A stretch of 64,000 nucleotides of DNA from Povalibacter uvarum. GTDB lineage: Bacteria; Pseudomonadota; Gammaproteobacteria; Steroidobacterales; Steroidobacteraceae. Below the pieces are notes generated by a model. It had not been told where the DNA came from and searched no databases. It saw only the letters and a program-made list of their open reading frames with translations. A program made the position numbers and the translations under genes. Of the stretch, positions 1 through 16,320 are shown one piece after another (position 1 is the stretch's first letter; every line of letters begins with the position of its first letter). Location: NCBI RefSeq assembly GCF_014202975.1, contig NZ_JACHHZ010000002.1, positions 372,001 through 436,000 on the forward strand. The letters are read 5' to 3'.

Positions 1-552
1 CTGGACCTGTGCTACACGAAGGCTCACGTCGACACGTTCGTCATCATCAGCGGCGACTCCGACTTCTCACCGCTCGTGAGCAAGCTGCGCGAGAACAACA
101 AGACCGTGATCGGCGTCGGCGTGAAGAGCTCGACGTCGGATCTGCTGATCGCGAACTGCGACGAGTTCATTTTCTACGACGATCTCGTGCGCCAGAACGA
201 GAAGAAGCAGCGCACGCGCCGCAAGACGGCGCCGAAGCAGCAGGCCGGCGCGCCGAAAGAACAGCCGAAAGCAGAGAAGACGGACGAAGACCGGCGCCAG
301 GAAGCCTTCGATCTGGTGATGGACACCATCGAAGCGCTCGCGAGCGAACGCGATCAGGACGAGAAGATCTGGGGATCGATGGTCAAGCAGGCGCTCAAGC
401 GCCGCAATCCCGGCTTCAACGAAACCTACTACGGCTTTCGCACCTTCAGCGATCTTCTCGAAGAAGCGAAAAAGCGGCGGCTGCTCGATCTCGAAGCCGA
501 CCAGAAATCCGGCGGCTTCGTCATCAAGCGCGTCAAGAGCAGCGGCGAGTAG
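1..552 (+). CDS. NYN-domain protein with C-terminal OST-HTH/LOTUS-like region (5' partial)
   Basis: The reading frame is open from base 1, so the true start lies upstream of the window. The first visible residues include the stretch VIISGDSDFSPLV, which matches the conserved acidic end of NYN (LabA/DUF88, PIN-like) ribonuclease domains, where a GDSDF motif supplies metal-binding aspartates. A charged, low-complexity linker rich in Lys, Arg, Gln and Glu follows. The last ~75 residues (WGSMVKQALKRRNPGFNE and onward, ending in a VIKRV strand) look like an OST-HTH/LOTUS RNA-binding module, the usual partner of bacterial NYN domains. I infer RNA binding or cleavage; the substrate is unknown. The stop is TAG at 550-552 and the next gene converges on it after 6 nt. 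Confidence 0.85.
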   Translation: MDLCYTKAHVDTFVIISGDSDFSPLVSKLRENNKTVIGVGVKSSTSDLLIANCDEFIFYDDLVRQNEKKQRTRRKTAPKQQAGAPKEQPKAEKTDEDRRQEAFDLVMDTIEALASERDQDEKIWGSMVKQALKRRNPGFNETYYGFRTFSDLLEEAKKRRLLDLEADQKSGGFVIKRVKSSGE

Positions 553-2646: not shown

Positions 2647-4947
2647 ATGGGCATCCTAGATCTCGGTCGATACAAGGGAATCGTGTGGGCAATCACAGGA
2701 TTCCTGGTGGCGTTCATCGCCATTCTGGCGTTGAACCATGGCATCGCCGGCCTGTTCGCCGATGACGTGGCGGGCGTCAAATTCCTTTCGCAGATGCGCA
2801 CGCAGCCTGCGGAAATCCAGGCAAACGCGCGCACGATCACCGAACGCCTGCAGGCGGGCGAGAAGGTCGATGACGCGATCGAGGCCCTGCGCAGCAGTGC
2901 AACCGCCTACGATCACGCATTCATCGGTCTCGCCGGCGGCATGGTCTCCGACAACTCCGGCGCAACGATCGGCGTCTCCGCGCTGAACGATGCCGAAGCG
3001 AAAGCGATGCTCGCCGACGGCGAGAAGGTGTGGAAGGAGTACAAGGCCAAGCTCGACCCGATCCTGCGCTTCTCCGGTTCGCCCTACGCCGCTGAAGCTC
3101 CTGCTCCCGCAGCCCCGGCTCCGACCGGCAAGAATGCTGCTGCAGCGCCCGCTGCCGAAAAGCCGGCCGGTGTGCAGCTCAGCCCGCGCGGTCGCCGCCT
3201 CCAGACGGCCCTCGTTGAATTGAACACATTCGCCGCGGCCTCTCAGGCCCAGCTTTCGCAGATCTCCACGAAGCTCGCCGGCCAGGTCGAAGAATCCAGC
3301 AAGGGCAACGCAGCACTGCTGCGCGGCGTGCAGATCGGCGGCTTGCTCGCCGCACTCGCACTGCTCGGCGCCCTCTTCTTCTATTTCGCGCGCAACCTGC
3401 GCAAGGAAGAAATGGTGTCGTCGCGGGCCCGTAAGGAAACCGCGGACATTCTGCGCACGGTGAATGAAGGTCTGTTCCTGCTCGACAAGGACCTGAAGCT
3501 CGGCAGCGAGCGTTCGATGGCGCTCAATACCATCTTCCGCAAGGAAGACTTCATGAACCTGACCTTCGACTCGCTGTTGAAGGACATCGTCCCCGAGAAG
3601 ACGCTCAAGACCGCGATGGACTACGTCGCGCTGCTCTGGGGCGAGCGCGTCAACGAAAAGCTGGTCAAGACGATCAACCCGCTGAACGAAGTCGAAGTGC
3701 ACTTCGACAACCCGGCCGGCGGTTTCGACACGCACTACCTCGAGTTCGATTTCAACCGCGTGAAATCCGACGGCTCGCTGTCGCACCTGCTGGTCACGGT
3801 GAACGACGTGACGAAGCGCGTGATGCTCTCGCGCGAACTGCAGGAATCGCAGGAAAAGGCCCAGGCCCAGCTCGACCTGCTGCTGCGCATCCTGCACGTC
3901 GAACCCGACAGCCTCACCGGCTTCCTCACCGACGCCGACGTGTCGCTCAAGATGGTCAACTCGATTCTCAAGGAGCCGGCTCGCGAAGAGACGGCGTTCC
4001 GCGCCAAGATCGACGGCATCTACCGCCAGGTCCATGCAGTCAAGGGCGAAGCTGCTGCGCTCGGCCTGAAGACGGTCGAACAGCGTGCGCATGCGTTCGA
4101 AGAATCCCTGAGCGACCTGAAGGGCCGCCCGACGCTGTCGGGCAGCGACTTCCTCCCGCTCGTCGTCAAGCTCGACGATCTGTTCAACCACCTCGCCCAG
4201 GTTCGCGAAATGCTGGGTCGTCTCGTCGACCTGCACCACGCCATCGCGGCGCGGCGTACGTCCGGCGGCGGTCAGGTCGAAGCGGCGAAGGTCGATCAGT
4301 GGCTCGCCGGCAAGCACGACCAGACGATGCAGATGAAGGCGCTGCCAACGCAGCAACCGCAACAGGAAGCGGAAGCCGCGGTCGGTCTCGAGCGGACGCT
4401 CGAAGATCTCGCCGCCCGCGTTGCCTCGTCGCATTCGAAGCAGGTATCGCTGAAGTGCACGGGCCTCACCGAAGTGCCCGAGTCCTACAAGCGCGCCGTC
4501 AAGGACATCACGATTCAGCTCGTGCGCAACGCAGTGGTGCACGGCATCGAGACACCGGACCAGAGAGTGAAGGCCCAGAAGTCGGAAACCGGCTTCCTCG
4601 GCGTCGAATTCACGCAGCGCGGCGAAGAAGGCTTCGAGCTCGTCGTTCAGGACGACGGTCGCGGCCTGCAGCTCGATCGCATCAAGGAAGTGGCCGTCGA
4701 GCGTGGACTGATCACGCCTGCACAGGCCGCATTGCTCGACCCGCGCCAGACGATGGCACTGATCTTCCGTCCGGGCTTCTCGACAGCGGATCGCGTCACG
4801 ACGGACGCAGGACGCGGCGCAGGCATGGATCTCGTGCGCATTCTGGTTGCCGAACTTGGCGGGCGCGTCGGCCTGGCCTCGGCCGGCGGACGCTTCTCGA
4901 AGTTCAAGATCTGGTTGCCCTCGCCCTCGCGAGCGGTAGCTGCATAA
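2647..4947 (+). CDS. Membrane-bound CheA-like histidine kinase without CheW domain
   Basis: A 766-residue protein. I chose the ATG at 2647 because AGGGGA lies 6 nt upstream and the first membrane helix (~residues 12-33) follows at once. A periplasmic region of ~200 residues, with a PilJ-like start (FLSQMRT) and an Ala/Pro-rich stretch, leads to a second helix near residues 230-255. A PAS-like cytoplasmic segment comes next, then a CheA-type Hpt domain with phospho-acceptor His463 (HAVKGEAAAL). The C-terminus is a CheA-like ATPase: N box LVRNAVVHGIETPD near 627, G1 box DDGRGL near 669, and GRGAGMD. There is no P5/CheW-like domain, so coupling to classical receptor arrays is unlikely. The protein probably senses its own periplasmic input and phosphorylates the CheY-like protein encoded 40 nt downstream. 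Confidence 0.88.
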   Translation: MGILDLGRYKGIVWAITGFLVAFIAILALNHGIAGLFADDVAGVKFLSQMRTQPAEIQANARTITERLQAGEKVDDAIEALRSSATAYDHAFIGLAGGMVSDNSGATIGVSALNDAEAKAMLADGEKVWKEYKAKLDPILRFSGSPYAAEAPAPAAPAPTGKNAAAAPAAEKPAGVQLSPRGRRLQTALVELNTFAAASQAQLSQISTKLAGQVEESSKGNAALLRGVQIGGLLAALALLGALFFYFARNLRKEEMVSSRARKETADILRTVNEGLFLLDKDLKLGSERSMALNTIFRKEDFMNLTFDSLLKDIVPEKTLKTAMDYVALLWGERVNEKLVKTINPLNEVEVHFDNPAGGFDTHYLEFDFNRVKSDGSLSHLLVTVNDVTKRVMLSRELQESQEKAQAQLDLLLRILHVEPDSLTGFLTDADVSLKMVNSILKEPAREETAFRAKIDGIYRQVHAVKGEAAALGLKTVEQRAHAFEESLSDLKGRPTLSGSDFLPLVVKLDDLFNHLAQVREMLGRLVDLHHAIAARRTSGGGQVEAAKVDQWLAGKHDQTMQMKALPTQQPQQEAEAAVGLERTLEDLAARVASSHSKQVSLKCTGLTEVPESYKRAVKDITIQLVRNAVVHGIETPDQRVKAQKSETGFLGVEFTQRGEEGFELVVQDDGRGLQLDRIKEVAVERGLITPAQAALLDPRQTMALIFRPGFSTADRVTTDAGRGAGMDLVRILVAELGGRVGLASAGGRFSKFKIWLPSPSRAVAA

Positions 4948-4987
4948 CTGGTCCGCGTCACGAACAAGTACAGCAAGAGGGATTTCA

Positions 4988-5404
4988 ATGGCGGCTAACG
5001 CAAAGGCTGAACCGTTGACGAACGGTAAGCTCAAGCTCATGATCTGCGACGATTCGAACATAATCCGTCGCAAGATCGAGCGTGAACTGAAGATCGACCG
5101 CCTGCAGGTCATCGCCACCGCGGCGAATGGCAAGCTCGCCGTCGAAGCGTTCCGGAAGGAACCTGCCGATGTCGTGACCATGGACATCACGATGCCCGAG
5201 ATGGATGGCATCGAATGCGTCGAGAATCTGGTCAAGATCAAACCCGACGTGCTGATCCTGATCATCTCGGCTTTGTCCGACAAGGCTACGGCCATCGAGG
5301 CCCTGAAGAAGGGTGCGAACGGTTTCCTCTGCAAGCCGTTCACGGATCGACAGCTGACAGAGGCGCTCGAAGAACTGCTTAGGGGCGCCGGCAATGATGA
5401 CTAA
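4988..5404 (+). CDS. CheY-like response regulator
   Basis: A 138-residue single receiver domain with a short N-terminal extension. The acidic pair is Asp21-Asp22, the phospho-acceptor is Asp66 (TMDITMPEMDG), the switch residue is a Ser near 95, and the conserved lysine is Lys116 (FLCKPF). All residues needed for phosphorylation are present. There is no output domain, so it works through protein contacts like CheY. It follows the CheA-like kinase by 40 nt and overlaps the CheX-like gene by 11 nt, so the three are almost certainly co-transcribed. The natural phosphodonor is the upstream Hpt domain and the natural phosphatase is the downstream CheX (inference from context). Confidence 0.93.
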   Translation: MAANAKAEPLTNGKLKLMICDDSNIIRRKIERELKIDRLQVIATAANGKLAVEAFRKEPADVVTMDITMPEMDGIECVENLVKIKPDVLILIISALSDKATAIEALKKGANGFLCKPFTDRQLTEALEELLRGAGNDD

Positions 5405-5843
5405 AGTTGAACTCGAGACGTTCGTCGAAGGAACGACGAATTATTTCGCCACTGCAGCCAATCAGCCGGCTTCGGTGGGCTCGCCTTACATCGTCCAGGA
5501 AGGACGTCCGACCGTGCAGGAGTTCACCGGCCTCATCAGTATCGCGGGCAAGCGCCGCGGCATCGTTTATTTCACCGCTTCGCGTCCGATGCTCACCGTC
5601 ATGCTCATGCGCATGGGCGAGACCGAGCTGACGCAGGAAAACATGTGCGATCTCGTGGGTGAAGTCGCCAACACGATCTCCGGCAACGCGCGCCGCGATT
5701 TCGGCAAGGACTTCATGATCTCCGTGCCGACGGTCGTCGCCGGCGAACCGGAGAAAATCGTCACCCCGGACAACACACGTTCGTTCGTCATCCCGATCAA
5801 CTGGCGCAGCCACTCTGCGCAGCTGGTCGTCTGCCTGGAGTGA
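5394..5843 (+). CDS. cheX: CheX-like chemotaxis phosphatase
   Basis: A 149-residue protein of the CheC/CheX family. The phosphatase signature ExxN is present as Glu90 and Asn93 (LVGEVANTISGNARRDFG), including the GN turn that follows it in CheX. Known CheX proteins dimerise and dephosphorylate CheY-P. Translation can start at adjacent ATGs at 5394 and 5397, both inside the 3' end of the CheY-like gene, with AGGGGC just upstream; this indicates translational coupling. The setting (kinase, regulator, phosphatase) makes a complete phosphorylation-dephosphorylation cycle. Confidence 0.9.
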   Translation: MMTKVELETFVEGTTNYFATAANQPASVGSPYIVQEGRPTVQEFTGLISIAGKRRGIVYFTASRPMLTVMLMRMGETELTQENMCDLVGEVANTISGNARRDFGKDFMISVPTVVAGEPEKIVTPDNTRSFVIPINWRSHSAQLVVCLE

Positions 5844-5914
5844 TCAGATTCCAGGCAATCGCGGCACGACGTAAGTAACCGCTCCAAGACGCCTGCCGCT
5901 GATCAACCGATGCA

Positions 5915-7849
5915 ATGCAACGCCGGCAACATGATGCAACCACAGGCGCTTTCAGCGCCGCCGGCGCGCTCTCTGGCAGTACTGTAGATGTCGTCGTGAT
6001 CAGCGCGGACGACGCGCTGCTCACGACACTCCAGCAGTCCGCCGGTCCCGAACACGTTCTCTGGCACGCGCCCTCCGCGGAGGCCGCGGTCGAGCTTCTT
6101 CTTGGCGGCCATTGCGGCATCCTCATCGCCGACATGCAGGTCGTTCGCAGCGATTCTGCCGCGCTGTTTGAACGTCTCCAGACACAGTTCCCGGAACTCG
6201 TCATGCTCGCCACCGGGCGGCGCGACGAGGAAGGCGCCGTCGCCGGATTGATCAGCAAGGGCAGCGTCTATCGCTTCCTGCACAAGCCGGTGTCGCCTGC
6301 GCGCGCGAACCTCTTCCTCGCCACAGCAACACGGCGTTGCCACGAGCTTTCACAGACTGGTTCGTCGCCAGCGCTCGCCAGCGTCAAGCAGCTTGCGGAG
6401 CCCGCGAATCGAATCCCGGTGATTGGTGGCATCGCGGCCGCAGTGCTGCTCGCAGTCGCACTGACGGTGTACTTCACACGATCCGATGAACCCGCTGCGC
6501 CAAGTGCGTCGCCAGTTGCTACCGCGCCGACTGCGCCAACGTCAGCACAACCTGCTCGCTCGACCACCGAATTGCTCGAGAATGCCAGGCAGGCCTTCGA
6601 TGCCGGTCGGTTGTCGGCACCTCCCAACGACAACGCGCTCGATCTCTATCGATCGGTCCTGGCCATCGAGGCCGACAACGCAACAGCCCAGACCGGTGTT
6701 CAGGACGTCCTGGATGCGCTCGAGCTGCAAGTCATGCAGGCACTGCAGGCCCGCAACGCGCCGAACGCCGCTCGCGCCCTCTCGGTGCTGCAGAGCGCGG
6801 ATCCGACTCACCCTGAAATCGCTCCATTGCGAGAACAGTTGCTCGCGCTCTCGCGCTCCGCCCGGCCTGAGCCGGTCGTCGCCAAGCCGGCTGAACAGCG
6901 CAAGGCTTCGCCGACGCGTACGACACCGAATACGGATCTGGCTCGCACGCGCCTCGCAGCGGGCCGGCTCATCGAGCCGGCGGATGACAGCGCCCTCTTC
7001 CATCTGCGCGCAGCGCGCGATGCGAAAGAGGACGAGTCCGCGAACCGGATTCTCGCCACCGATCTGGGCGCTCGTCTGCTCGCGCAGGCGAGAGCGTCGA
7101 TCGCAATCAGCGACGCCGCGCAGGCAAGGCAGGCATACGCTGCGGCTGTTGCGATCGATCGCGAGTTCGAGCTCGCGTTGCCTGATCTCGTCGAGGTCGG
7201 CGGTGAGCTGGATGATCTGAGCGCCGCGAGCGCTCAAGCGGCCAGCTCACGCGCAGTTGTCGAGCTGCTGGCGCCCGTCATCCGTTTGCGCGAAACCGGA
7301 CAACTGATCCGGCCCGTGGGAAACAATGCATTCGATTCGCTCCAGCAGGTTGCGAGCCAGTATCCGAACGCAGCTGAAGTCCGCGCCGAGCAGCAGCGCC
7401 TCGCTTTCACACTCATCGACAACGCGCGCACGGCATTCGCCGCACGCGAACTCGAACAGGCTGAACTGCTGCTCGGGCGAGCCGAAGAGCTCGTGCCACG
7501 GATGTCCAGCACACGCTCCCTGCGCGATCAGATTGCGGCTGCGAAGGAAGAACGCGCGGCGGCCAGCCGCGTCCTGCAAGCGGCCGATCTGCCCCGCAAG
7601 CGCGAGGCCGCACCGATCTATCCGCCTGATGCCCAGCGCAAGGGAACGGAAGGCTGGGTCGACATCGAGTTCACGATTGGAATGGACGGCACGACACAGG
7701 AACTCGTCGTGCGTGAAGCACAGCCCGCCGGTGTCTTCGACAAAGCTGCGATCGATGCGTTGCGCAAGTGGCGCTTCGAACCGGTGATCCGCAACGGCGC
7801 TGCCGTGAACCAGCGCGCAGTGCTGAGGATGCGGTTCGCGCTGGATTGA
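5915..7849 (+). CDS. Receiver-TM-repeat-TonB C-terminal fusion protein
   Basis: A 644-residue protein with an unusual layout. Residues ~24-140 form a receiver-like domain with acidic pair Asp32-Asp33, candidate phospho-acceptor Asp73 (ILIADMQ) and Lys124 (FLHKPVSP). Residues ~168-187 are a single membrane helix. A Pro/Ala-rich linker and three ~90-100-residue alpha-helical repeats follow, each starting with a G(R/Q)L-x-x-P motif (AGRLSAPP, AGRLIEPA, TGQLIRPV). Residues ~566-644 are a TonB C-terminal domain (APIYPPDAQRKG, ALRKWRFEP). The predicted topology puts the receiver in the cytoplasm and the TonB domain in the periplasm. The gene starts 71 nt after cheX on the same strand, so it probably belongs to that operon. 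There is no strong ribosome binding site at 5915. A paralogue lies at 19499-21478. Confidence 0.85.
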   Translation: MQRRQHDATTGAFSAAGALSGSTVDVVVISADDALLTTLQQSAGPEHVLWHAPSAEAAVELLLGGHCGILIADMQVVRSDSAALFERLQTQFPELVMLATGRRDEEGAVAGLISKGSVYRFLHKPVSPARANLFLATATRRCHELSQTGSSPALASVKQLAEPANRIPVIGGIAAAVLLAVALTVYFTRSDEPAAPSASPVATAPTAPTSAQPARSTTELLENARQAFDAGRLSAPPNDNALDLYRSVLAIEADNATAQTGVQDVLDALELQVMQALQARNAPNAARALSVLQSADPTHPEIAPLREQLLALSRSARPEPVVAKPAEQRKASPTRTTPNTDLARTRLAAGRLIEPADDSALFHLRAARDAKEDESANRILATDLGARLLAQARASIAISDAAQARQAYAAAVAIDREFELALPDLVEVGGELDDLSAASAQAASSRAVVELLAPVIRLRETGQLIRPVGNNAFDSLQQVASQYPNAAEVRAEQQRLAFTLIDNARTAFAARELEQAELLLGRAEELVPRMSSTRSLRDQIAAAKEERAAASRVLQAADLPRKREAAPIYPPDAQRKGTEGWVDIEFTIGMDGTTQELVVREAQPAGVFDKAAIDALRKWRFEPVIRNGAAVNQRAVLRMRFALD

Positions 7850-7852
7850 CCG

Positions 7853-9166
7853 TCAGCTTCCTTCCGGCTTCTTCCTGCCGCCGCGCTCATCCACTTCACC
7901 GCGATCGAATCGGCGGCCGAGCCACAAACCCAGCATTGCCCATACAGCCGCGACGCCTGCTCCCAGCATGGCGAGTGCCGCGGGGCCCCAGCCGATTCCC
8001 TCGAGCAATTTGTTGAGCTGAGCCGAGATGGCGTCGGCGCCGCGGTAGACAGGCACGTCGACCGTGTTCTTGGCCTTGTACTTCGTTTCCTTGTCGAGCG
8101 GGCTCCACAGCATCTCGCGGCCCGGTCGCACGAATGCGTATTCCATCGCACGACGCCCGATAACCACGACAGCCAGCACGGCGAGCGTGCCGGTCGCCGC
8201 CAGCGCAATGAACCCGCCGACCATGATCAACGGAATTGCGGTCACGAGCGCAACGACGCCGAAGCGCTTCGCGATGCGGCCGGTCAGGAAGATCTGCGAC
8301 AGCACGGTCAGCGTCTGCACGATCCAGTCGAAGCGGGCGAAGATACGGGTGCGATCGGTGATCTCCGGGTAGTTGACTTCGACCAGCCGCAGCTGCTCGA
8401 AGTACAGCAACGTGTTCACTGCCGAAATGAACACGACGAAAAGTGCGATGCCCAGGATGTACGGCGATCGAAGGATCAGCGTGATGCCAGCGAAGATGTT
8501 GCCGCCTAGCGGCCGATCCTCAGTCACGGCCTTCGAACGGTCACGCCAGATTCCCAGCAGCACCCGCTGGCAGAGAATCGCAATCACGAAGGACGCCGCA
8601 CCGACGAACAGCACACCGCTGTTGCCGATGGCGCTGACGCTGACGTCCGAAATGAGCGGCCCGGTGAGTGCGCCCGCGCTGCCGCCCGCCGCGATCACAC
8701 CGAACAGCCGCTTGCTCTGCCCGCTGTCGAACAGCTCGAGCAGGAAGCTCCAGAAGATGGACAGCAGGAACAGGTTCACCACGCTGATGAACACATAGAA
8801 GAACTTGCCGGCGGCGGGATCGATCTGTTCGCCCCGCAACGCGAGGCCCGTCAGGACCAGCACCAGGGCGACGAACCCGTACATCGCGGGAAGGAAAATA
8901 CTGCGGCGGACCCGCGCAACGATGAAGCCGAACGTCGGGATGATCGCGATCGACGCGATCGACGTGATGATCCAGAGGTCGGCCGTCTGGTCGCGGCCAA
9001 TGATGGTGGCGATGGTCTCGCGGACGGGCCTGACGGAGAAGTAGCCCGCCCACATGAAGAAGAACAGGCCGAACGCGGCGACGACCGCCGACACTTCACG
9101 TGGCTCGATCGGAGCCAGTTTGCTGAGCAGCCGGCCGAGCGGGGACGTTGTTGTCGTAGCAGTCAT
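7853..9166 (-). CDS. NTP/NDP exchange transporter (ATP/ADP translocase-like)
   Basis: A 437-residue integral membrane protein with about 12 hydrophobic segments. The pattern near the N-terminus (FFMWAGYFSVRPVRETIA) and the late segment SPLDKETKYKAKNTVDVPVY with RGADAISAQL are characteristic of the TlcA/NTT nucleotide-transporter superfamily in its free-living-bacterial branch. In obligate intracellular bacteria these carriers swap host ATP for ADP; what the free-living homologues carry is not settled. The gene converges on the receiver-TonB gene with a 3-nt gap. The start is ATG at 9166. It looks like a single-gene unit. Substrate assignment is by family only. Confidence 0.8.
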   Translation of the reverse strand: MTATTTTSPLGRLLSKLAPIEPREVSAVVAAFGLFFFMWAGYFSVRPVRETIATIIGRDQTADLWIITSIASIAIIPTFGFIVARVRRSIFLPAMYGFVALVLVLTGLALRGEQIDPAAGKFFYVFISVVNLFLLSIFWSFLLELFDSGQSKRLFGVIAAGGSAGALTGPLISDVSVSAIGNSGVLFVGAASFVIAILCQRVLLGIWRDRSKAVTEDRPLGGNIFAGITLILRSPYILGIALFVVFISAVNTLLYFEQLRLVEVNYPEITDRTRIFARFDWIVQTLTVLSQIFLTGRIAKRFGVVALVTAIPLIMVGGFIALAATGTLAVLAVVVIGRRAMEYAFVRPGREMLWSPLDKETKYKAKNTVDVPVYRGADAISAQLNKLLEGIGWGPAALAMLGAGVAAVWAMLGLWLGRRFDRGEVDERGGRKKPEGS

Positions 9167-9400: not shown

Positions 9401-11242
9401 TTACGGAATGGTCTTGCTCGCGACGTTCGACAGCGAGCTTTCGGATCCGGTATCGCTGTAGGCCTTCACTGCGAAGTACCAGGTGCCCGGTGCCAGCTGC
9501 TCGACCACATACGAGGTCAGGCTCGGATTCGCCAGCTGGACGGTCTGGTTGAGCGCGGAGGAGCTGGTGCCGTAGACGATGCGGTAGCCCGCGAGATTCG
9601 TCAGCGAGCTGCCGTCCGTGTTCTGGGTCGGCGCCGCCCACGACAGCGTCGCGCTGCCAAGCGCGACCGAGTTGGCCGCGATCGAGAACGCCGGGAGCGA
9701 AACGCTGTTGGTGCCGTCGCTCACGCTGATCACGATGCCCGTGGTGGTGCCGGAAGCCGAAGGCGTGCCGCTCAGACGGCCTGTCGTCGTGCTGAACGTG
9801 GCCCACGACGGCTTGTTCTGGATGCTGAAGGCGAGCGTCGCACCTTCCGGATCGCTGGCCGTCGGCTGGAAGCTGTAGCTGCTGTTCACGTTCACGGACG
9901 TCGCGGGTGTGCCAGAGATCGTCGGCGGGTTGTTGACCGGCGTGCTGCCGCCGCTGACCGTGATGCTGAAGGCCGCCAGCGAAGCCGTGGCCGTGCCATC
10001 GCTCACGCTGATGATGATGTTGCTGGCGGTGCCGGCTGCCGTCGGCGTGCCGTTCAGACGGCCCGTCGAGCTGCTGAACGTTGCCCAGGTCGGCTTGTTC
10101 TGGATCGTGAAGCCGAGCGACTGGCCGTCCGCGTCATTCGCGGTCGGCTGGAACGAGTAAGCGGTGCCCACCGTGGCCGTCGTGCCAGGCGTGCCGCTGA
10201 TGGTCGGCGCGCGGTTCGGTGCCGCCTGCACGGTGATGGTGAACGCGGGCAGAGAGGCTGTGCTGCCGCCGTCGCTCACGCTGATGCCGATGTTCGCGTA
10301 CGAACCCACCTGCGCCGCAGTCGGCGTGCCGGTCAGGCGACCCGTCGAGCTGCTGAACGTTGCCCACGTCGGCTTGTTCTGAATGCTCCACGTGAGCGTG
10401 TTGCCTTCGGCGTCCGTGGCGGTCGGCTGGAACGAATACGCCTGTCCCGCCTGCACGGAAGTCATCGGCGTGCCGCTGACGACGGGCGCGGTGTTGTTAG
10501 GCCCGCGAACGCTGATCGTGAATGCCGGAAGCGATGTAGTCGCCGTGCCATCGCTGACACTGATGACGATGTTGGCGTAGTTGCCGACGCGCTGCGTACC
10601 CGGCGTGCCGGTCAGAGTGCCCGAGGCGGTGCTGAAGCTCGCCCACGACGGACGGTTCGAAATCGAGAAGGTCAGCTGGTTGCCGTCGGCGTCGGCGGCC
10701 GTCGGCTGGAAGCTGTACGCAGTACCTGCAGTGACCGAAGCCGCCGGTGTGCCGCCGATGGTGGGCGGCGTGTTCGAGGCAGGCGGCGGCTGGCTGCGGC
10801 CGCGAATGCGGATCTTGAAGGGACCGATGGCGCGTTCGTCGCGGCCGTCAGTCACGGTGATCGTGATGTCCGAGCTCTCGCCGACATCGCCATCGGCCGG
10901 CACGCCGGTGAGCGCACCGGTCTCGACGTTGAACGTCGCCCACGAGGGCTTGTTGGTGATCTCGAACTCGAGGAAATCGTTGTCGGCGTCCTTCGCCGAG
11001 GGAACGAACGAATAGTCCTGGCCCGCTTCGATGTTCGTTTCCGGAACACCGCTGATCTCGGGCGGCTGATTCGGCGTCGGCGGCGGAGTGGCGGGCGGCG
11101 GCGTCTGCTCGACGGGCTCAGGAGTTGCTTCGTCGCCTTCGCCACCGCATGCGGCAAGAGCCGCTGCCATGGATACGACGAGCCACGCTTTCGCGAGATT
11201 CCTGATAATCGCCTTGCTCCCCAAACCCGCTATTGGATCCAT
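9401..11242 (-). CDS. Surface lipoprotein with five Ig-like repeats and a C-terminal fibronectin-III-like domain
   Basis: A 613-residue exported protein. The N-terminus has a basic start, a hydrophobic stretch and a lipobox ending in Cys32 (MAAALAAC), so it is a predicted lipoprotein. A Pro/Thr-rich linker (~38-58) leads to five ~90-residue repeats of the putative-Ig (He_PIG) type. Each has an xxPxIxGxP start, a YSFxPTAxDADG calcium-site-like core and a KPxWAxFxxxTGxLxGTP end. The last ~85 residues (GSATLSWAAP onward, ending NVASKTIP) are fibronectin-III-like. Such proteins usually act in adhesion or biofilm. The ATG at 11242 lies only about 20 nt after the end of a c-di-GMP-I riboswitch, and a second riboswitch lies further upstream. 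A related gene at 11805-13271 has the same end domain. Confidence 0.88.
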   Translation of the reverse strand: MDPIAGLGSKAIIRNLAKAWLVVSMAAALAACGGEGDEATPEPVEQTPPPATPPPTPNQPPEISGVPETNIEAGQDYSFVPSAKDADNDFLEFEITNKPSWATFNVETGALTGVPADGDVGESSDITITVTDGRDERAIGPFKIRIRGRSQPPPASNTPPTIGGTPAASVTAGTAYSFQPTAADADGNQLTFSISNRPSWASFSTASGTLTGTPGTQRVGNYANIVISVSDGTATTSLPAFTISVRGPNNTAPVVSGTPMTSVQAGQAYSFQPTATDAEGNTLTWSIQNKPTWATFSSSTGRLTGTPTAAQVGSYANIGISVSDGGSTASLPAFTITVQAAPNRAPTISGTPGTTATVGTAYSFQPTANDADGQSLGFTIQNKPTWATFSSSTGRLNGTPTAAGTASNIIISVSDGTATASLAAFSITVSGGSTPVNNPPTISGTPATSVNVNSSYSFQPTASDPEGATLAFSIQNKPSWATFSTTTGRLSGTPSASGTTTGIVISVSDGTNSVSLPAFSIAANSVALGSATLSWAAPTQNTDGSSLTNLAGYRIVYGTSSSALNQTVQLANPSLTSYVVEQLAPGTWYFAVKAYSDTGSESSLSNVASKTIP

Positions 11243-11804: not shown

Positions 11805-13271
11805 TCACTGCACCGTCTTGCTTGCGACGTTCGAGTTCGTGCTCTCCGCACCTGCACTCGTGTACGCGCGCACCGCGAAGTAGTACGTCGCCGGCGACAA
11901 ACCTTCGATCATGTACGTCGAGAGGCTCGGGTTCGTGACGTTCACCACTTGCGTGAGTGCGGTTGCCGAAGTTCCGTAGTAGATGCGGTAACCGGCAAGA
12001 TTCGTGAGCGAGGAACCGTCGGTGTTCTGCGAAGGCGCAACCCACGAAACCGTGGCGCTGCCGAGCGAAACCTGGTTCACCGCGATCGCGAATGCGGACA
12101 GCGAAGCGCTGGTCTTGCCGTCGCTGACGCTGATGACGATGCCGGAGAACGTGCCTGCGTCAGCAGCCGCCGGCGTACCGGAAAGCTGGCCGGTCGAGGT
12201 GCTGAAGGACGCCCACGACGGCTTGTTCGCAATCGAGAACGTCAGCGTGTCGCCATCGGCATCGGATGCGGTCGGACGGAAGCTGTATGCGCTGTTCGCG
12301 TTGACCGACGTGGACGGCGAGCCGGTGATCGTCGGGGCGCGATTCGCAGCGCCGTTGACCGTGATCGCGAACGCCGGCAGCGAAGTGCTCGTCTTGCCGT
12401 CGCTCACAGTGATGACGATGCCCGAGTGCGTCGCTGCTGCCGTCGGTGTGCCGCTCAGACGACCCGTGGTCGTGCTGAAGCTCGCCCACGTCGGCTTGTT
12501 GGCGATGCTGAAACCCAGCGTATCGCCGTCGGCGTCGCTGGCCGTCGGCTGGAAGCTGTACGCGGTGTTCACGCTGACAGCCGTGGTCGGTGAGCCGCTG
12601 ATGGTCGGCGCGCGATTCGCAGTGCTGCCGACAGTGATGCTGAAGGCGGGCAACGAAGTGGTTGCCTTGCCGTCGCTCACGCGGATGACGATGCCCGAGA
12701 AGGTGCCGGACGCGCCCGGCGTGCCGCGAAGACGGCCCGTCGACGCGTTGAACGAAGCCCACGACGGCTTGTTCGAGATGGAGAACGTGAGCGTGTCGCC
12801 ATCGGCGTCGCTCGCGGTGGGAGTGAACTGGTAGACGTTACGCAGCGCGACACTCGCCGGCGGCGTGCCGGAGATCGTCGGTGCGCGGTTCGCGGCAGTC
12901 GCGGGAACCACTTCGATCACGAAGCTCGGGCCGAGGATGCGATCGCTGTAATAGCCGGTCGCATTGATTAGGACGTTGCCCCAATAACCGGTGGTCGTCG
13001 GCGTGCCGTAGATGCGGCCCGTCGCGGGATCCTGGCTCATCCACGACGGGGGATTCCACATCGAGAACGTGAGCTTGATGTTCGACGGGTTGTAGACGGT
13101 CGGCGTGAACGAGAACGGCTTGCCGACTTCGGTGGGAGCCGGCGTCCCCGAAATGACGGGACGCGTCTGAGCACTGGCTGTGCCCATGCTCATCAGACCG
13201 ACCAGGCACAGAATGAAAGCGACCCACGCTCTTGCGTGCGGCAGCCTGAAAAGAGAGGCGGAAAGGACCAT
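11805..13271 (-). CDS. Secreted protein with four Ig-like repeats and a fibronectin-III-like domain
   Basis: A 488-residue exported protein. A basic N-terminus and hydrophobic core ending TASAQ give a type I signal peptide with cleavage near residue 35; there is no lipobox, unlike its neighbour at 9401. Four He_PIG-type repeats follow (RPVISGTP..., then three beginning NRAPTI(S/T)G(T/S)P), the last three with TASDADGDTL cores. The end domain (GSATVSWVAP onward) closely matches the fibronectin-like end of the neighbour, so the two genes share a recent ancestor. The ATG at 13271 has GGGAGTGA about 10 nt upstream. A single c-di-GMP-I riboswitch sits in its ~150-nt leader. The likely role is adhesion or matrix (inference). 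Confidence 0.87.
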   Translation of the reverse strand: MVLSASLFRLPHARAWVAFILCLVGLMSMGTASAQTRPVISGTPAPTEVGKPFSFTPTVYNPSNIKLTFSMWNPPSWMSQDPATGRIYGTPTTTGYWGNVLINATGYYSDRILGPSFVIEVVPATAANRAPTISGTPPASVALRNVYQFTPTASDADGDTLTFSISNKPSWASFNASTGRLRGTPGASGTFSGIVIRVSDGKATTSLPAFSITVGSTANRAPTISGSPTTAVSVNTAYSFQPTASDADGDTLGFSIANKPTWASFSTTTGRLSGTPTAAATHSGIVITVSDGKTSTSLPAFAITVNGAANRAPTITGSPSTSVNANSAYSFRPTASDADGDTLTFSIANKPSWASFSTSTGQLSGTPAAADAGTFSGIVISVSDGKTSASLSAFAIAVNQVSLGSATVSWVAPSQNTDGSSLTNLAGYRIYYGTSATALTQVVNVTNPSLSTYMIEGLSPATYYFAVRAYTSAGAESTNSNVASKTVQ

Positions 13272-13547: not shown

Positions 13548-13773
13548 GGGCTCCCCCCCATCGCTCGCGAGATGGGAGAGGGACCGGACATGAGGCGGAG
13601 GAGGACGGAGGAGGAGGTGGAAGGCAGCGGCGCGGAAGGGAGACAGGGGAAAGAGATGAGCGGAGGGCGATGAGCTACGAGCTATGAGCCCGGAAGGGAC
13701 CGTGAGCCGGAGGGGATCGCAACTCCGGCTCCGGGTTTCTGGCTTGCAGCTCGCCGCTCGTCGCTCGCGGCTA
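13548..13773. repeat. Paired-arm word repeat, GAGC type, plus flanking hairpin
   Basis: The left arm (13653-13690) is a run of degenerate GAGC-containing words (GATGAGC, TACGAGC, TATGAGC). The right arm (13739-13772) is the complementary type (GCAGCTCG, CCGCTCG, TCGCTCG). Between them is a shorter hairpin built on CCGGAGGGG. The right arm ends on the stop codon of the HD-GYP gene. A separate small hairpin (CCCATC against GATGGG) lies near 13550-13572. The rest of the gap between 13505 and 13652 holds no gene that I can support. Confidence 0.6.
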
Positions 13774-16128
13774 TTCCGGAAACTTGAACCCGTGCTGCCG
13801 CACGAGCCTCGTGCACGCGGTCGCCAGGTGCAGGTCGTACGCGACTCCCGCTCCGCGATTGATCTCGTCGATCGCTGCATCGATGCCGAGTGCCGGGCGA
13901 TACGGTCGCGGTGAGGACATGGCTTCGACCACATCGGCGATCGCCAGGATGCGGGCTTCGATGAGGATCTCTTCGCCCTTCATGCCGCGCGGATAGCCGC
14001 TGCCATCGAAGCGTTCGTGGTGTTCGAAGATGATTTCGGCGACCGGCGCGCCGAAGTCGATGTTCGCGAGCAGCTTGGTGCCTTCTTCGACGTGAGAGCG
14101 CATCAGTGCGGTTTCCGCTTCATTGAGCGGGCCCGGACGCGCAAGGATCGACGGCGGTACGGCGACATTGCCCACGTCGTGCAGCAAAGCTGCGACGCGC
14201 AGTGCGTGCTGACGTTCGCCGTCGAGACCCGCTTCGCGCCCGAGCGCGACTGCGAGCGCGGCGACGCGACGTGCGGAACCAGCGGTATAGGGATCGTGCT
14301 TCTCGCTCAGCGCGAGCAGCGCGTCGATCATGCCCTGCAGGGCCACGTCTGTACGCTGCAGTGAGCTCAGCGTCTGACCGTGAGCGCGCTTCGCGTGCAG
14401 CATTCGCCACACTCCATCGCTCAGTGCGGACAGCGCGCGCTGATCGGCTTCGCCATAGCCTGCGTCGCGATTGGCGACACCCAGGACAGCAACCGCCTCT
14501 TCGCCGTCGACCATCGGCACGGCCACATAGCGCTGCAGATCGGGCAAACCATCGGGCTGCGGCTTCCAGGTGAGATCGTTGCTCGAAGTGGCATGACGCG
14601 AACGCACGCATTCCGCGAAGACGCTCATGCGCGCCATCTGGCGCGGCTCGGCGTTCGCCATGATCGTCTGCGCCTTCGCGCGGTCACGCCACGCGACCAG
14701 CGAAATGGTCTTGTCGGCGGGATGGACGAAGAAGAGGTACGCGAGCGGGCTGTCGGTCATTTCCGCCGCGTGCTCGACCACGCGCCGCACGATAGCGGAC
14801 TCGTCGAACGACTCGGACTGGCGGAACAGGTCGATCAGGAATTCCTGCTGTTTCTGTTCCTGGCGCTGCGCGGAAGCCTCGCGCCGGCGCTGCGAAATAT
14901 CGCGGATGACGAGGACGGTGTCGCCGGCGCCGCTGTCGATGCGACCCACGGTGACCTCGACGTCCATCAGCGAACCGTCGCGACGCTTGTGAGTTGCTTC
15001 GTATCGATCGCTGGCCTTGCGCGCGGCCTTCAGATCTTCGGCGCTCTGCTGCTCGATGTTCGACGCCGGCGTCTTCACGAGCTCTTCGCGCGCGTGGCCC
15101 GACATGCGGCAATACGCCTCATTCACTTCTAGGATGCGGCCTTCGCTGTCGAGCACCCAGCAGCCGTCGGACACGGCTTCGAGAATCGTGCGGCTCGACA
15201 GGGCCTGCTCCTGGGCCCGCTCCAGCCGCTTGCGCTCTTCGGCCACGTATTGCGTGAGATCGCAGGCGCTCACGAGATCGGCATTGCGGCCGTCGAATTC
15301 GATCGGGCGGCTCGCAAGCATCACCTGCAACGTCGATCCGTTCTTGCGCCGATGCGTGACAGTACCGCCGGAGTCAGCGGATGCAGGACTTGCTTCGAGC
15401 AACGCCGCGCCCTTTAACGCGAGAAACTCGGCTCGCGTATAGCCGTAAGCCGTCAACGCAGTATCGTTGACCGCGATGAAACCGCCGGTCGCCTGGTCGG
15501 CGATCCACATCGGCAGCGGATTAGATTCGAAGATGCGGCGGAAACGCGCCTCGCCCGAGGCGAGCCGCTGGTTGGTCGATTCGAGCTCGCCGATCTGATT
15601 GCGCAAGCGCGCCTGGACCTGTTGCGCGCGTTCGGTCGCAAGCGCGAGTGCCTGCTGTGCCCGCTCTGCAGCCTCGGAGCGCTGCACGGAGTTCTCGTCG
15701 AGCGCCTGGAGCTTCACGGTTGCGTTGTTGGCCTTGGCGGGCGCTGCGGCAGGTGCCGGGGCAGCGGCGACCAACTCATCGAGCACCTTCACGAGTGCCT
15801 CGGGCTGCTCAGTGCGGGAAAGGAAGCGTTCGGCACCGAGCTCGAGCGCAAAGCGCTCGTACTTCGGGTCGTCGTGACGGCGCGTGTAGAAGACGAATGG
15901 GATCGACTGCAGACGTTCGTCCTGTTTCCACTTGCGGCACAGAGCGAAGCCGTCCATCCGGGGCAGCACGATGTCGGAAACGACGGCATGCGGCGGCTCG
16001 CGACGAGCGGCATCGAGCGCTTCGAGACCGTTCGTGGCCTTCACGACCCGATGGCCGCGGGGAACCAGCAGCTTCTCCAGCGCGACCTGCTCGGACTCGC
16101 GCTCGTATGCAACCAGAATGACACCCAT
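13771..16128 (-). CDS. Receiver-PAS-PAS-GAF-HD-GYP signalling protein (c-di-GMP phosphodiesterase family)
   Basis: 785 residues from the ATG at 16128, which has AGGAG 10 nt upstream. Order: an N-terminal receiver (VVSDIVLPRMDG holds the phospho-acceptor Asp), an Ala-rich linker and coiled coil, two PAS domains (FRRIFESNPLPMWIAD; ILEAVSDGCWVLDSEG), a GAF domain, then HD-GYP. The HD pair is at ~650-651, HHE at ~703-705, and DGSGYP ends at ~713. The usual HDxGK is HDVGN here: the conserved Lys is Asn. HD-GYP enzymes open c-di-GMP to pGpG or GMP. The gene lies ~150 nt beyond riboswitch C on the same strand, so it could set the c-di-GMP level the riboswitches read. Activity is not certain because of the Lys-to-Asn change. 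Confidence 0.9.
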   Translation of the reverse strand: MGVILVAYERESEQVALEKLLVPRGHRVVKATNGLEALDAARREPPHAVVSDIVLPRMDGFALCRKWKQDERLQSIPFVFYTRRHDDPKYERFALELGAERFLSRTEQPEALVKVLDELVAAAPAPAAAPAKANNATVKLQALDENSVQRSEAAERAQQALALATERAQQVQARLRNQIGELESTNQRLASGEARFRRIFESNPLPMWIADQATGGFIAVNDTALTAYGYTRAEFLALKGAALLEASPASADSGGTVTHRRKNGSTLQVMLASRPIEFDGRNADLVSACDLTQYVAEERKRLERAQEQALSSRTILEAVSDGCWVLDSEGRILEVNEAYCRMSGHAREELVKTPASNIEQQSAEDLKAARKASDRYEATHKRRDGSLMDVEVTVGRIDSGAGDTVLVIRDISQRRREASAQRQEQKQQEFLIDLFRQSESFDESAIVRRVVEHAAEMTDSPLAYLFFVHPADKTISLVAWRDRAKAQTIMANAEPRQMARMSVFAECVRSRHATSSNDLTWKPQPDGLPDLQRYVAVPMVDGEEAVAVLGVANRDAGYGEADQRALSALSDGVWRMLHAKRAHGQTLSSLQRTDVALQGMIDALLALSEKHDPYTAGSARRVAALAVALGREAGLDGERQHALRVAALLHDVGNVAVPPSILARPGPLNEAETALMRSHVEEGTKLLANIDFGAPVAEIIFEHHERFDGSGYPRGMKGEEILIEARILAIADVVEAMSSPRPYRPALGIDAAIDEINRGAGVAYDLHLATACTRLVRQHGFKFPE

Positions 16129-16320
16129 GCCCCGAAAACTCCTGGCCGTACGGGCCTGCCTGTCCGGACCGTCCTGCGGACGTGTAATCAGCGGGCGCGA
16201 CCGTCCCACCGTGAGCGCCAATGCTCTCTTATGTCAGGCCGTAAGTATGCCGACCAAGTCCTTGATTCGCACGGTCGAGAGGGGGTGGGAGGCAGGAAAG
16301 GTGACGGGGAGCACAGGAGG

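Follow-up and report, generated by a model that had tools for sequence, protein, structure and literature searches.

Relays of the CheA-CheY type are familiar for outputs that reach motors, pili and cytoplasmic regulators. The E-x-x-N motif is the mark of the CheX/CheC phosphatase domain, and receiver-like domains are able to bind Hpt or kinase domains. A receiver that lacks even one of the five residues of the phosphorylation site is defined as a pseudo-receiver in a 2025 review (PMC12632262), and the pseudo-receiver of FrzS (Myxococcus) is described as functioning without Asp phosphorylation (PMC1974792). At the cell envelope, ExeB is reported to be TonB-like and to bind the secretin (PMC4098917), and GspB/OutB is presented as a scaffold that anchors the secretin to the inner membrane and cell wall (PMC9239104). 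Here we analyze a 64,000-nucleotide stretch of the Povalibacter uvarum genome (hereafter the window; the genome around it measures 6.3 Mb), in which genes for a CheA-like kinase, a CheY-like receiver and a CheX phosphatase are followed by a gene for a protein that we call TB, defined by a receiver-like domain, a membrane helix, helical repeats and a TonB C-terminal domain. The trio and the TB gene form a conserved unit in the Steroidobacter group, and the residues of the TB receiver mark it as a pseudo-receiver. The relay itself is of a known kind. In the open-licence literature searched, no described system was recognized in which such a relay is paired with a membrane-spanning pseudo-receiver/TonB-like protein.

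The four genes all lie on the + strand in the order kinase, CheY, CheX, TB. Calculated from their coordinates, the intergenic gaps are 40, −11 and 71 bases, the negative value being an 11-base overlap between the CheY-like and CheX genes. An initial annotation, made from the sequence alone, had described this row, and both its coordinates and its family assignments hold up, with clear Pfam matches. The first gene (2647..4947, +) encodes P0001, a CheA-like membrane histidine kinase of 766 residues with Hpt (2.5e-6) and HATPase_c (4e-11) matches. Its ATPase domain (4372..4926, +), placed by Pfam, fold comparison and conserved residues, has the CheA P4 fold (8oyq, Z 23.0, root-mean-square deviation 2.3, 172 aligned). 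The presumed phospho-accepting residue of the Hpt domain, His463 in the motif HAVKG (codon 4033..4035, +), does not vary among 24 full-length kinases selected for comparison; in a set of 61 that takes in shorter relatives it is present in 47, gapped in 10 and another residue in 4. N628, H632, E635, D669, G671 and G673 are found in all 61. The second gene (4988..5404, +; Pfam Response_reg, 6e-28) encodes a stand-alone CheY-like receiver with a complete active site: D21, D22, D66 and S94 are each conserved in 42/42 sequences and K116 in 41/42, with one gap. The third (5394..5843, +; Pfam, 2.5e-20) encodes a CheX-type phosphatase whose E90-x-x-N93 motif is kept almost throughout (E90 in 37/37, N93 in 36/37). 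Kinase, CheY and CheX thus keep their catalytic residues, and on these residues they are predicted to be competent.

In its P4 ATPase, Hpt histidine, full-site stand-alone CheY and CheX ExxN motif, the locus resembles a CheA-CheY-CheX relay. It departs from one in that its kinase sits in the membrane and carries periplasmic and PAS-like regions of its own, and in that the gene run includes neither a receptor nor a motor gene. As the initial annotation had it, the kinase combines Hpt and ATPase domains, and no CheW domain is matched: CheW (P5) is absent from the Pfam matches of P0001 and from the seven families matched by the 24 kinases scanned. The periplasmic region (2746..3330, +, approximate limits) is a putative helical sensor with an Ala/Pro-rich insert, seen as helices in the model. 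Pfam names no sensor domain in P0001; a weak PilJ-type match occurs in the homologue L222 (8.6e-6, 26.2 bits vs. a cut-off of 26.6), and among the 24 kinases one has such a match, at 0.0088, and P0001 has none. The cytoplasmic PAS-like region (3442..3846, +, approximate limits) rests on PAS_4 matches in 3 of the 24 members and on an alpha-beta block in the model. None of the listed fold matches covers the sensor region, or the TB repeats on their own, which is uninformative either way. The CheA-type kinase and the weakly PilJ-like sensor of some homologues also recall Pil-Chp; however, no other Pil-Chp part was seen among the neighbors scanned, in which these parts were not searched for systematically.

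The fourth gene (5915..7849, +) encodes P0004, the TB protein of the operon, with 644 residues and an architecture drawn from the Pfam TonB_C match, an AlphaFold2 model and Foldseek. The model (mean pLDDT 88.1) shows, with high confidence, a complete receiver fold of five alternating strands at residues 24-148, followed by a single membrane helix (residues 167-189; 6413..6481, +), repeats and a TonB domain. Three blocks of helical, TPR-like repeats (6563..7567, +) span the helices at residues 217-551, give Foldseek TPR matches and are recognizable in the sequence too. They are presumed periplasmic because, in each of the three TB classes counted, Lys and Arg are more numerous before the membrane helix than after it. 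The TonB C-terminal domain (7610..7843, +; Pfam, 2.7e-18) matches 6i97_D in Foldseek (TM-score 0.89 by target length, 37% identity), and TonB_C is matched in 39 of the 40 TBs of set A2. Helix, three repeats and TonB domain are therefore as first annotated. Two TB orthologues from the window's genus group, L055 (9393-10919) and L056 (10250-11428), lack the TonB domain by phmmer, and reading the fetched stretch in its three forward frames revealed none either. Two other variants were noted: a 963-residue TB relative (L252, 6723-9614) with, by eye, two tandem receiver-like domains, and a single 723-residue frame (G000:C6:521564-523255) that joins a Ser/Thr kinase to TB-like repeats.

The receiver-like domain of P0004 (5984..6358, +; placed by MAFFT, phmmer, the model and fold comparison) keeps the receiver fold (2rjn, Z 17.7, root-mean-square deviation 2.2, 130 aligned). 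Its Pfam Response_reg score is 18.4 bits vs. a cut-off of 30.2. The initial annotation had credited this domain with the acidic pair, Asp73 and Lys124. The last two are there as stated (codons at 6131-6133 and 6284-6286), but the acidic pair is not: Ser30-Ala31 occupy the metal-binding positions, and Asp32-Asp33 lie one residue beyond. The register is the same by MAFFT against CheY, by phmmer against 3hv2, itself a degenerate receiver at those positions, and by the model, whose strand 1 stops at residue 29. Structure prediction of the receiver, as had been proposed, thus gives the receiver fold and agrees with Ser30-Ala31 at the metal-binding positions.

This degeneracy extends across the TB family. 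We collected 103 distinct TB proteins and counted the receivers of 102, having dropped L082_46, in which no membrane helix was found. A TB was called linked if its own strand held, no more than 2.5 kb away, a frame scoring above 250 bits to the kinase profile; this gave 15 downstream-linked receivers (13 from the window's genus group, g1, including the window, plus L080 and L081), 63 upstream-linked and 24 unlinked. The full five-residue site occurs in 0/102. Position 30 is never acidic and position 31 is acidic in only 7/102, so a register shift of one would yield at most seven acidic pairs. Asp73 is kept in all 102. Lys124 is present in 15/15 downstream-linked and 21/24 unlinked receivers and in 0/63 of the upstream-linked ones, the main kinase-linked class; Thr100 follows with 9/15, 2/24 and 0/63, and Asp32 is found in 14/15 downstream-linked TBs. 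Because the receiver fold is present and the five-residue site incomplete, the TB receiver is by its residues a pseudo-receiver under the published definition.

To follow the pairing of the trio with TB, loci were fetched around TB matches and around CheX or kinase matches, and 80 more were taken from one CheX scan (the best 80 of 241 relatives, most records without a family name; the nearest named ones are Steroidobacter and Peristeroidobacter). Removing duplicates by CheX sequence left 96 distinct CheX loci. In 81 of them TB and CheX share one gene run; 12 are cut by the sequence end beside the cluster and 3 are without TB, giving 81/84 assessable loci. The order is TB-kinase-CheY-CheX in 58, kinase-CheY-CheX-TB in 11, TB-Ser/Thr kinase-kinase-CheY-CheX in 11 and TB-kinase-CheX in one; the loci without TB read kinase-CheY-CheX (11), kinase-CheX (2), CheY-CheX (1) and CheX alone (1). 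The nine loci fetched by TB all have it, which is no test since they were chosen for TB. TB is present in 31/36 fetched by CheX or kinase and in 41/51 from the CheX scan, where 9 of the others are cut and 1 lacks it. Two of the three TB-less loci look like cluster remnants, each with CheX, a kinase match missing the ATPase part and no CheY found (L104, 3735-5419; L105, 628-2285, with only 627 bases upstream). The third, L178, appears to be the contig of L233/G580, outside the family. Inside the gene runs the median gaps are −4 to +16 bases, with starts taken as first start codons, so that individual overlaps may be artefacts. Single queries against 150 genomes of the family matched CheX in 81 (E ≤ 1e-5), the kinase in 85 (1e-40) and TB in 96 (1e-10), the last a lower bound, as G009, G054, G063 and G117 are unmatched yet have a TB by profile (L097, L114, L109 and L096). 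The initial annotation had named failure of TB to be kept with the kinase genes as grounds for abandoning its proposal; the two are kept together.

More than one TB branch stands at this trio. The window holds a paralogous TB, P0005 (19499..21478, +), about 12 kb downstream of the operon and divergent from a prolyl oligopeptidase gene; its receiver Lys is replaced by Thr and no CheA-like kinase of this type lies beside it. A third TB is on another contig (L079, 9057-10826). In the tree, the unlinked P0005 is sister (100/100) to the TB of L080, which sits in a kinase operon of genus group g16. The upstream TBs group together as a clade, and so, separately, do the operon TBs of the window's genus group. 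A quick tree of 70 rows concurs on these points. Linked TBs do not form one clade by the approximately unbiased test (p = 0.00017; forcing them together drops the log-likelihood by 52.6), run under LG+G4 without a mixture model on 45 rows after thinning, L100 not among them. The unlinked label changes three times on the tree, two of the changes being forced by starred branches. Given that linked TBs are not one clade and that linkage changed at least twice, the tree implies that different TBs were swapped, joined or detached at this trio at least once, in a direction that cannot be read from it.

TB genes also keep company with Ser/Thr kinases. A Ser/Thr-kinase profile built in this analysis picks out the gene between TB and kinase in 11 of the 96 loci, and such a gene directly follows TB in 9 of the 23 unlinked TB loci. 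The Ser/Thr kinase of L083 matches the Pfam protein kinase family (3.5e-47) and has no Response_reg match, its N-terminus being receiver-like by eye; in relatives beside other TBs, Response_reg scores above the cut-off in L070 and below it in L077. Loci with a Ser/Thr kinase beside TB, with or without the CheA-like kinase, include L053, L059, L070-L072, L076-L078, L083, L085, L086, L090, L091 and L100, among others. In other families, 20 loci were fetched and 16 have the trio, a Ser/Thr-kinase gene being adjacent in three of these (on the same strand in L222, and on the opposite strand in L233 and in L228, where a PP2C domain is present as well). A scan of ten proteins around other-family trios, one of them a trio kinase, found Rho, thioredoxin, a DEAD helicase, an AsmA protein, FtsH, a hexapeptide protein, one unmatched protein and the Ser/Thr kinases of L222 and L228; among these ten, no shared function emerged besides the Ser/Thr kinases.

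A second set of neighbors points toward the envelope. Genes resembling gspA and gspB precede TB on the same strand in 17 of the 23 unlinked loci and in L100. In these 18 loci, found by profiles (eight loci each, with Pfam identity checked for L071 only), a Ser/Thr kinase often follows, as in L071 (6197-10922). The gspA-gspB pair adjoins TB in L062, L071 and L072; in others the distance reaches several kilobases. This nearness suggests a connection between TB and the assembly of type II secretion. Like GspB/ExeB/OutB, TB is an inner-membrane protein with a TonB-like periplasmic part; unlike them, it carries TonB_C, TPR-like repeats and a receiver, and T2SSB (PF16537) is neither matched in P0004 nor among the eight families listed for TB set A2. 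The Ser/Thr-kinase gene of some relatives, the P0005 paralogue and the gspA-gspB genes near other TBs were all absent from the initial annotation.

Sequence and gene order show which parts are present, which active sites are intact and which degenerate, and that the pairing is conserved. Our best joint reading, also the simplest one that leaves no conserved part unused, is put forward tentatively and at somewhat less than even confidence: the kinase passes phosphate to CheY, which CheX resets, and the TB pseudo-receiver is bound by CheY-P or by the kinase, whereupon TB signals into the periplasm. The membrane kinase would sense something at or outside the inner membrane and autophosphorylate its Hpt histidine; the phosphate would move to the stand-alone CheY and be removed by CheX. 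The pseudo-receiver of TB would serve as a docking face and is probably not the main phosphate acceptor; its retained fold is as expected of a docking domain. Compared with FrzS, TB differs in spanning the membrane, ending in a TonB-like domain and keeping the Asp that FrzS is without. Docking would shift the assembly or position of TB, letting its repeats and TonB-like domain work on a partner in the envelope, by analogy with GspB/ExeB most likely a secretin (N0-type) domain or peptidoglycan. A wider version of this idea is possible but less likely: the relay output would cross the inner membrane as CheY-P is read by a TB scaffold gating a periplasmic or outer-membrane machine, for instance a secretin, with no call on transcription, a flagellum or ExbB-ExbD, and TB would be an adaptor family also for Ser/Thr kinases, a meeting point of histidine-aspartate and Ser/Thr phospho-signaling.

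Several observations weigh against the docking scheme. The 102/102 invariance of Asp73 need not hold for a pure docking domain, and the PilJ likeness of the kinase sensor is weak. TB is found in the fetched stretch at none of the 16 other-family trios, so the trio is spread more widely than its pairing with TB; the few TB homologues in other families are L249-L252, and in the f145 genomes that have both, TB and trio lie on different contigs. Conversely, the 23 unlinked TBs in the fetched loci have no kinase above 250 bits beside them. As for the secretin, the gsp loci come from related genomes and so are not independent, neither gspA nor gspB was seen near the CheX loci, and in this genome the best gspA match lies some 0.7 Mb away from the window.

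The same proteins could work in the reverse direction, with the periplasmic part of TB sensing envelope state and its receiver-like domain tuning the kinase or its Hpt domain. We regard this as unlikely, though it is the strongest of the alternatives. The genes are adjacent, the periplasmic part of TB is large, and receiver-like domains have the binding ability noted at the outset; moreover, the Ser/Thr-kinase gene after 9/23 unlinked TBs means that TB may be a general kinase partner. However, the kinase has periplasmic and PAS-like regions of its own, and the other-family trios keep it with no TB in the fetched stretch at 16/16 loci.

A less probable scheme, that of the initial annotation, has the kinase phosphorylating Asp73 of TB directly, with CheY and CheX as a sink or parallel branch. 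The invariance of Asp73 favors it, as does the downstream-linked class, with its high counts of Lys124, Asp32 and, in part, Thr100, and some pseudo-receivers that keep the Asp are considered possibly phosphorylated, as less efficient response regulators (PMC12632262). On the other hand, the metal-binding positions of P0004 are non-acidic, as they are in nearly all TB receivers, the Lys is gone from every upstream-linked member, and a fully competent CheY is encoded within the same gene run. On these residue counts we dropped direct phosphorylation of TB as a general mechanism, which the data do not support. We keep it as a rival for Steroidobacter, where retention of Asp32, Asp73 and Lys124 makes it conceivable.

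It is more doubtful still that TB and the trio are mere neighbors, or are co-regulated without contact. Gene order is the main evidence for the pairing, and TB occurs without an adjoining trio just as the trio occurs without TB. Chance proximity nevertheless sits poorly with 81/84 assessable loci, two gene orders, near-zero spacing and the involvement of several TB branches.

The initial annotation had further proposed phosphorylation control of energy coupling. In TonB proteins the Ser-His pair of a Ser-X3-His motif is described as contacting ExbB, and the His is reported to be essential for Ton and Tol activity (PMC12215075). The membrane helix of P0004 contains neither Ser nor His; other members, checked for His only, have one in 3/14, 5/63 and 3/24 cases by class, near the ends of the stretch examined. 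By comparison, a His does occur in the N-terminal helix of L005, a short TonB-like protein from this genome. It is therefore very improbable that TB is a TonB driven by ExbB/ExbD, with the relay regulating its energy coupling to outer-membrane receptors: the genuine TonB C-terminal fold and the 10 ExbD-type matches of the genome, all on contigs other than the window's, must be set against a helix without His, a large cytoplasmic receiver-like domain, repeats between helix and C-terminal domain, and two own-genus orthologues without the TonB domain. The proposed control of energy coupling is likewise unlikely, and the ExbB-driven role was dropped on the membrane helix and those two orthologues.

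The rest of the surroundings adds context. Upstream, a partial NYN/OST-HTH (LOTUS) protein is encoded at 76-552 (+), and the L042 operon likewise has an NYN/OST-HTH gene upstream. Convergent with the TB gene is a gene for a membrane protein (7853-9166, −) with a TLC ATP/ADP transporter family match (1.4e-7) and an MFS match below the cut-off. Beyond it lie two adjacent proteins of repeated putative Ig domains with a C-terminal fibronectin III match (9401-11242 and 11805-13271, both −), that match being slightly under the cut-off in the first, and a Receiver-PAS-GAF-HD protein (13771-16221, −; HD_5), which we take to be HD-GYP-like. Promoter-like patterns (2 sites vs. 0.7 expected) and terminator-like patterns (4 vs. 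5.5 expected) were uninformative.

Taken together, these observations suggest that a relay of this kind may deliver its output directly to the cell envelope. Because different TB branches are found at one and the same trio, this is a testable claim and not a one-genome curiosity. The 2025 review (PMC12632262) calls the control of pseudo-receivers a mystery still. If the pairing is functional, phospho-signals would have a direct way into the envelope, and the control of a pseudo-receiver could be studied in a tractable case.

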